This document shows, piece by piece, positions 4,831-29,276 of a stretch of DNA of 64,000 nt. A program made the translations under genes and the position numbers. Below the pieces are notes generated by a model that was given only the letters and a program-made list of their open reading frames with translations, ran no database searches and was not told the DNA's origin. The number at the start of each line of letters is the position of its first letter. Position 1 is the first letter of the stretch. This DNA comes from Haloterrigena turkmenica DSM 5511 (GTDB lineage: Archaea; Halobacteriota; Halobacteria; Halobacteriales; Natrialbaceae), in the NCBI RefSeq assembly GCF_000025325.1, contig NC_013743.1:2356001-2420000 (forward strand), given 5' to 3'.

Positions 4831-4905
4831 GCTCCGTTGGTGTAGTCCGGCCAATCATTTCGGCCTTTCGAGCCGATGACCTGGGTTCAAATCCCAGACG
4901 GAGCA
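4831..4905 (+). tRNA. tRNA-Glu (anticodon TTC)
   Basis: The 75-nt cloverleaf has acceptor stem GCTCCGT pairing with ACGGAGC and discriminator A at 4905. The anticodon stem TCGGC/GCCGA encloses loop CTTTCGA, giving anticodon TTC. The T-arm contains the GTTCAAATC core. CCA is not encoded. A T-rich stretch about 40 bases upstream is a plausible promoter. The 3' half is repeated just downstream (see the repeat entry). Confidence 0.97.
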
Positions 4906-5017
4906 TTTTGCTGCAAACAATACGTGAGTAGCAAAAGCAACTCTGGATTTGAAGTAGAGAAACGCGAGTGTAGCGAGCGTTTCGCGTGGTTCAAATCCCA
5001 GACGGAGCCTCCGTCTG
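4884..5017 (+). repeat. tRNA-Glu-linked palindromic element with duplicated tRNA 3' end
   Basis: A 21-bp segment of the tRNA 3' end (4884-4904) recurs exactly at 4988-5008. Between the copies lie a hairpin (stem 4906-4914 with 4928-4936, including one G-T pair, loop containing AACAAT and CGTGA), an inverted imperfect T-arm copy (GGATTTGAA, 4945-4953, matching TTCAAATCC at 4990-4998), and an inner stem GAAACGC/GCGTTTC (4959-4965, 4977-4983). Immediately after, CAGACGGAG-C-CTCCGTCTG (4999-5017) makes a further palindrome. The layout is matched by the element behind tRNA-Val at 29133-29276. No protein gene fits in it. The direct repeats resemble attachment sites. Confidence 0.85.
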
Positions 5018-29079: not shown

Positions 29080-29154
29080 GGGTTGGTGATCTAGTCCGGT
29101 TATGATACCTCCTTCACACGGAGGAAGTCGGCAGTTCAAATCTGCCCCAACCCA
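29080..29154 (+). tRNA. tRNA-Val (anticodon CAC)
   Basis: The 75-nt cloverleaf has acceptor GGGTTGG pairing with CCAACCC, discriminator A at 29154, and anticodon stem CTCC/GGAG with loop TTCACAC, giving CAC. The T-arm has the GTTCAAATC core. A TATA-like CTTAAG lies about 30 bases upstream. Its 3' end is repeated downstream. Confidence 0.97.
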
Positions 29155-29276
29155 CTACTTCTGTCGCGAACAAATCCGTGAGCGACAGAATCGTTACGTT
29201 GGGCAGTTTGAACTAGACCGAGGTTCTGCGCCGAAGGCGCAGAACCTCGGACGTAGTTCAAATCTGCCCCAACCCA
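29133..29276 (+). repeat. tRNA-Val-linked palindromic element with duplicated tRNA 3' end
   Basis: A 22-bp segment of the tRNA 3' end (29133-29154) recurs exactly at 29255-29276. Between the copies are a hairpin with a 9-bp perfect stem (29159-29167 with 29182-29190, loop containing GAACAA and CCGTGA), then a large inverted repeat: an inverted imperfect T-arm copy (about 29199-29215), a 15-bp perfect stem (29218-29232 with 29236-29250) around the triloop GAA, and the direct copy. The order is the same as behind tRNA-Glu (4884-5017). The direct repeats resemble attachment sites, but no integrase is seen. Confidence 0.87.

Follow-up and report, generated by a model that had tools for sequence, protein, structure and literature searches.

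Gene-less palindromic units directly 3' of tRNA genes across the haloarchaea, probably placed there as non-autonomous insertion units

The rtT repeats of Escherichia coli tyrT are tandem units 3' of a tRNA gene that all repeat the 3' end of this tRNA, and they represent tandem duplications of one 178-bp unit at one locus. CRISPR arrays are extended from one end, where the repeat is duplicated, IMEX are integrated at dif by the host Xer recombinase, some of them via a folded single-stranded site, and in IS608 a guide 5' of a hairpin faces a cleavage site 3' of the same hairpin. Casposase inserts preferentially at the extreme 3' end of tRNA genes, with target duplications of 14-15 bp (PMC6977970). 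Archaeal tyrosine integrases count the T-loop among their preferred sublocations, and the tRNA 3' end is restored and duplicated upon integration (PMC8371274). The attC site of integrons is an imperfect inverted repeat with an unpaired spacer, a variable terminal hairpin and little sequence conservation (PMC2727003), and the PATEs that are abundant in Haloquadratum are gene-less and palindromic, with no target duplications (PMC3119063).

The window, by which we mean the whole 64,000-nucleotide stretch of Haloterrigena turkmenica DSM 5511 DNA analysed here, contains tRNA-Val(CAC) followed by a unit with a fixed order of elements: a hairpin (H1), an inverted copy of the T-loop (I), a palindromic core that includes the palindrome H2, and D, a direct copy of tRNA nt 54-73 (Table 1). 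H1 starts inside the T-run 3' of the gene and has its arms at 29159-29167 and 29182-29190. The first-pass annotation had described an exact 22-bp copy of the tRNA end, a perfect 15-bp stem and an inverted T-arm copy at this locus. The first two descriptions hold, as the D match reaches 29255 via AG to give an exact direct repeat (29133-29154 / 29255-29276) and the H2 arms (29218-29232 / 29236-29250, GAA between them) pair perfectly; the inverted copy is present in imperfect form, short of one T-loop base. The coordinates likewise bear out the observation that the tRNA-Glu(TTC) unit (4906-5009) repeats this order with different sequences. The DNA folding z-score of the tRNA-Val unit is -11, and its core family (type A) also occurs 3' of tRNA-Pro(TGG) and tRNA-Gly(GCC). 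Overall, the tRNA-Val unit is one member of a class-wide haloarchaeal family of units of ~100 bases each, without genes.

Table 1. Coordinates of the tRNA genes in the window that carry units, and of the elements of these units.
Feature	Coordinates	Strand	Description	Basis
tRNA-Val(CAC)	29080-29154	+		ARAGORN, Rfam RF00005
Duplicated target, tRNA-Val	29135-29154		tRNA-Val nt 54-73, TTCAAATCTGCCCCAACCCA	
H1, tRNA-Val unit	29159-29190	+	9-bp stem TTCTGTCGC/GCGACAGAA, 14-nt loop GAACAAATCCGTGA	sequence
I, tRNA-Val unit	29200-29213	-	inverted T-loop/T-stem copy, imperfect	
Core, tRNA-Val unit	29214-29256	+	type A (AGACCGAGGTTCTG...), including palindrome H2	repeat search
D, tRNA-Val unit	29257-29276	+	exact copy of tRNA-Val nt 54-73	repeat search, 22 nt, 100%
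tRNA-Glu(TTC)	4831-4905	+		
H1, tRNA-Glu unit	4906-4936	+		
I, tRNA-Glu unit	4942-4953	-	TCTGGATTTGAA	
Core, tRNA-Glu unit	4954-4989	+	GTAGAGAAACGCGAG...GCGTTTCGCGTGG	
D, tRNA-Glu unit	4990-5009	+	19/20 nt identical to tRNA nt 54-73	

The flanks of all 46 tRNA genes found by Rfam in this genome, and of the tRNAs of two congeners, were scanned for D, called as a copy of tRNA nt 54-73 with at most 5 mismatches in 20 and at most 300 nt downstream. D was present 3' of 21/46, 26/43 and 26/44 tRNAs in the three genomes and never upstream, and a control with the tail of a different tRNA gave D-like matches at 0.4-1.1%. Direct copies behind 21 of 46 tRNAs, none upstream and 0.7% with foreign tails show that the layout of the tRNA units is not due to chance. 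The first-pass annotation had proposed a repeated, tRNA-linked process and had staked it on a genome-wide scan for inverted T-arm copies; the proposal is upheld, with an inverted 12-mer downstream of 17, 22 and 16 tRNAs versus upstream of 2, 1 and 0, and with enrichment behind tRNAs both genome-wide and class-wide.

Across the class, the I-core-D pattern GATTTGAA-N(25-55)-TTCAAATC matched 261 of 292 haloarchaeal genomes, and a reversed control matched none; the palindromic unit noted behind tRNA-Val is real and belongs to something far more widespread than the first-pass annotation had indicated. Within the phylum, the pattern was found in 18/19 haloarchaeal genomes versus 4/101 others, these four having 1-2 matches each, as chance would give. 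A search for a second core, type B, in 84,980 bacterial and archaeal species yielded at least 120 matches, and among the 80 of these that were listed all were haloarchaeal but one, a metagenome-assembled genome labelled only 'Euryarchaeota'. Genera with type-B cores include Natrinema, Natrialba, Halorubrum, Haloferax and Haloarcula. On the loci examined, type-B copies lie 34-328 nt 3' of a tRNA gene in 121 of 128 cases, involving 33 tRNA kinds, and all 121 tRNA-linked copies have the same orientation. Four of the other seven sit at the edge of a contig, and a tRNA end stands directly before at least one of the remaining three (L401).

Five seemingly isolated units in two genomes could all be traced to a tRNA or tRNA end in their context. 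In front of three of them stands a tRNA 3' end (tRNA-Gly, -Pro or -Arg) that an insert of ~1.5, 19 or 54 kb has displaced; a fourth is found 2.3 kb 3' of tRNA-Trp, and the fifth follows a tRNA-Pro(CGG) overlooked by the tRNA scan. At locus L375 (G001:C1:2722755-2724563), an insert of ~1.5 kb separates tRNA-Gly(TCC) from a displaced tRNA fragment of 29 nt that keeps its unit; the insert contains a metallo-beta-lactamase-like gene, with no integrase seen. We also observed tandem identical tRNA-Asp and tRNA-Gly(GCC) genes ~310 bp apart, each group being followed by a unit (G000:C1:371042-371499 and 2291297-2291756).

A sample of 197 units at 150 loci defined the anatomy of the family. The duplication is 20-21 bp long and starts at G53/T54, G stands directly before D in 193/197 units, and the T-loop boxes read GTTC(A/G)AA / TT(T/C)GAA(N). 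D ends on the discriminator base, and in the copies read no CCA follows it, so that a DNA origin is favoured and retro-copying of a mature tRNA is disfavoured for these copies. H1 stems vary by locus, with 132 distinct 5' arms among 150 hairpins; the H1 loop is 14 nt long in 41/150 and carries a recurring motif, GA(A/G)CAA..CG(T/C)GA. Core families are set by paired feet (TAGA/GCGTAG, TCAGGGA/GACCGTGG, CCCTG/CTTCGG, TCACG/ATCGGG and others), and since these feet differ among families the recognised sequence is not obvious. The commonest internal loops among 183 folded units are small (1x1, 0x1 or 2x3) and lie just inside the T-loop stem.

Alignment of flanks between congeners revealed units that one species has and another lacks, the difference being set precisely at the tRNA 3' end: homology with empty sites begins at the base that directly follows the tRNA or D. 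Such differences occur at tRNA-Arg(GCG), Glu(CTC), Gly(TCC), Pro(TGG), Gln(TTG) and Ile. The tRNA-Arg(GCG) site is empty in three of six congeners and occupied by a different unit in each of G001, G002 and G005, and the distal flank equals the empty-site flank in two of these three carriers. Differential loss from an ancestral array at this locus is possible but less simple, and deletion between the 20-bp direct repeats is another possible source of empty sites. In arrays, the proximal D is nearer in sequence to the tRNA than the distal D (22 vs 4, p = 5e-4), as if new units enter beside the tRNA. Cores, furthermore, are exchanged: H1 and flanks are conserved around swapped cores at Thr(TGT), Val(CAC) and Arg(TCT) (H1/core 0.92/0.48, 0.87/0.55 and 0.97/0.67, respectively), the reverse case of a kept core with swapped H1 and flanks occurs at Ser(CGA) and Leu(TAG), Pro(TGG) shows core exchange as well between G000 and G005, and 12 cores are closer to the core of another tRNA than to their orthologue. 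An inverted core between I and D at tRNA-Ser(TGA) of G001 (L276) is as expected from recombination between inverted T-loops, and it counts against the insertion reading given below.

The two tRNA-derived parts of the units relate differently to the local tRNA, which bears on the earlier suggestion that each palindrome is custom-built by copying the local tRNA end. D follows its own tRNA, with 1.07 mismatches at nt 61-73 versus 6.96 to other tRNAs (197 units). I matches the tRNA almost always at nt 54-61 and nowhere past nt 64, with a match of 0.76/0.61/0.48 at nt 62/63/64 to its own tRNA versus 0.48/0.38/0.26 to others (197 units). In 101 units with an exact D, I averages 1.82 mismatches over the four positions nt 62-65 and matches fully in no more than 11 units, and custom copying of the inverted arm was rejected on these figures; its agreement at these positions nevertheless beats permutation (1.86 vs 2.56, with 0/2000 permutations as low). 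Where D and tRNA disagree, I sides with the tRNA in 31 cases and with D in 13. Being mismatched even beside an exact D, and closer to the tRNA than to D, I is neither a fresh copy nor corrected from D. The custom-built palindrome was therefore half right: the expectation that the tRNA-derived part always matches the local tRNA holds for D, a true local copy, and fails for I, which comprises the T-loop plus a weak and partial local match at nt 62-64. A guide or recognition role of I, with units surviving best at tRNAs that fit it, would explain this weak match, and the simplest account of the tRNA-specific end D is a duplicated target or att site. Local copying, the main reading of the first-pass annotation, could take the form of a polymerase in replication or repair that changes template at the tRNA end and makes the palindrome out of local sequence; it would account for an exactly local D, for the quasi-palindromes with the perfected H2 of the window, and for the covariation of nt 57, identical in tRNA, I and D in 184/197 units (AAA 161, GGG 23) even where orthologous tRNAs differ, as at Arg(TCT) and Ser(TGA). 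We regard it as improbable, given that the core is not local (near-identical cores stand 3' of different tRNAs, are common to the whole class and keep one orientation), that I is a poor copy even in young units, and that the H1 loop motif recurs. The alternative already raised in the first-pass annotation, mobile units with tRNA-specific ends, fits these data better than local copying.

Conserved hairpins directly 3' of transcribed genes could instead point to a structured RNA or a tRNA 3' trailer with a cellular function, for example through a k-loop-like H1 or T-arm antisense; H1 loops are often GA...UGA like archaeal k-loops, with GA..YGA in 85/150. The mismatches in the stems speak otherwise: H1 and core stems contain 64 G-T versus 59 A-C mismatches (25:26 and 39:33), whereas in the host tRNAs, taken as control, the acceptor and T stems contain 59 versus 8. 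Lacking the G-T over A-C bias of tRNA stems, the units keep their palindromy at the DNA level, and on this test we dismissed an RNA element. Units, moreover, are present or absent between congeners, many tRNAs have none, and Rfam at the gathering score yields no family other than tRNA; a function of this kind is very improbable. Nearly as hard to sustain is the idea that ordinary integrative viruses or plasmids using tRNA genes left the units behind as scars or attP remnants, even though att sites usually lie at tRNA 3' ends, integrases are known to use the T-loop as a sublocation and the direct repeats resemble attL/attR. Two specific unit patterns gave 0 and 1 match in 2.9 million viral contigs, the single match sitting 3' of a tRNA-Glu gene, and no match in phage and plasmid records, while among the listed matches of a broad pattern in viral, phage and plasmid collections there were only AT-rich or unstructured chance ones; a viral or plasmid attP was rejected on these scans. 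Genuine islands, whose att lengths differ (~12-29 nt), sit on the tRNA side of the unit and push it away from the gene, so that the unit is not their attP, and the units themselves are fixed in size and order and carry no cargo.

Position and orientation specific to tRNA genes, exact presence and absence, a local D, polar arrays and exchanged cores characterise the units, which are palindromic as DNA rather than RNA and did not occur in the plasmids and viruses searched. We consider it probable that they are haloarchaea-wide insertion units, gene-less and non-autonomous, which a recombinase acting in trans places at tRNA 3' ends in a fixed direction. Each insertion would add one unit, always in the same orientation, precisely at the 3' terminus of a tRNA gene; the gene would stay intact while a second copy of its last 20 nt, D, comes to lie on the far side. 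Since each insertion would add D at the far side, repeated insertion would build arrays in which the newest unit adjoins the tRNA. Together, the inverted T-loop and mismatched palindrome may form the recognition structure, I could pair with a T-loop, either that of the target or that of D, and units can swap cores at the T-loop borders. We infer a site-specific recombinase, possibly the Xer-like enzyme of the host, with the folded structure as its substrate. Because the repeat hides the junction, a target duplication of the Cas1 kind and an element-borne tRNA end are indistinguishable by sequence; the latter would suit either a tyrosine recombinase or an IS200/IS605-like cleavage after TTCAA.

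The chromosome of this genome (3.9 Mb) encodes only three clear tyrosine recombinases. The Xer-like one, at G000:C1:1880557-1881594 (L511:2558-3595), scores 110 bits against an XerA cut-off of 220 and 24.6 against an integron-integrase model with a cut-off of 265 (one of three recombinases scored). The protein was found in 87/87 haloarchaeal genomes, nearly always as a single copy and also in genomes without a pattern match (for example G041, G042 and G019), and this universality makes a correlation with unit number impossible. It may serve only chromosome dimer resolution and is a candidate enzyme for unit insertion, nothing more. A further, tentative picture, which we think rather unlikely, is a haloarchaea-only chromosomal recombination system, an integron-like platform spread over the tRNA genes, in which tRNA T-loops dock foldable gene-less cassettes with exchangeable cores and the host Xer-like recombinase inserts them directionally beside the tRNA.

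Relative to the described systems, the tRNA units resemble attC in the imperfect palindrome, unpaired spacer and terminal hairpin at the unit 3' end (183 folded units), as well as in the variability of that hairpin and the low sequence conservation, and integrons in having one site per unit and polar arrays. They differ in lacking the GTTRRRY / RYYYAAC boxes and cassette genes and, apparently, an attI platform and a nearby integrase; their target is any tRNA T-loop, and the stem test shows no strand preference. Targeting of tRNA 3' ends with duplication is shared with casposons and Cas1, but the duplication spans 20 bp, from T54 to nt 73, rather than 14-15 bp, and the ~100-bp gene-less units have an internal I in place of terminal inverted repeats and cas1. 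Growth from one end would be shared with CRISPR arrays, but the structure of the units is conserved and not arbitrary. Palindromes near both ends (H1, H2) without terminal inverted repeats are common to the units, IS200/IS605 and PATEs, and by analogy the guide-hairpin-cleavage layout of IS608 may be compared with I-H2-D. PATEs show no target duplication, whereas a 20-nt direct repeat, which could be element-borne, flanks each tRNA unit, and the units sit 3' of tRNA genes or of tRNA ends displaced from them. A restored and duplicated tRNA 3' end also links them to SNJ2-type and other integrase elements, although SNJ2 has an att of 13-14 bp, not 20 bp, and tyrosine-integrase elements carry an integrase and attP, in contrast to the cargo-free units. 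IMEX target dif rather than tRNA T-loops, and Xer use by the tRNA units is hypothetical. The rtT repeats are confined to one locus, whereas the units are diverse and occur at many tRNAs throughout the class. No compared system fits all features of the tRNA units, and a search of literature available without subscription found no description of them.

If our reading is correct, an active kind of mobile DNA that has no name yet is shaping the surroundings of many tRNA genes in almost all haloarchaea, among them the genetically tractable genera Haloferax and Haloarcula. The fast turnover of tRNA flanks would be explained, with a bearing on tRNA genes as integration hotspots, and each tRNA would hold a polar record of insertion order comparable across species. 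A compact recombination tool accepting many tRNA-like sites might also be derived from such a system.

A rarer, kindred layout occurs at tRNA-Ala and tRNA-Arg(GCG), where the inverted last 10-11 nt, a stem (GTCACACTCGCTTCGCTCGCGTGAC) and the direct last 12-13 nt follow one another (L048, G000:C1:441700-441995; L254; L257; L103). By strict scan, this last-12-13-nt class (Ala, Arg) accounts for 3 of 229. In addition, a long haloarchaeal hairpin, GTTTCGTGATGACGAGAGAGCTTCGCTCTCTCGAACCAC, is common to L261 and L062, nested in the core of one unit and in H1 of the other.
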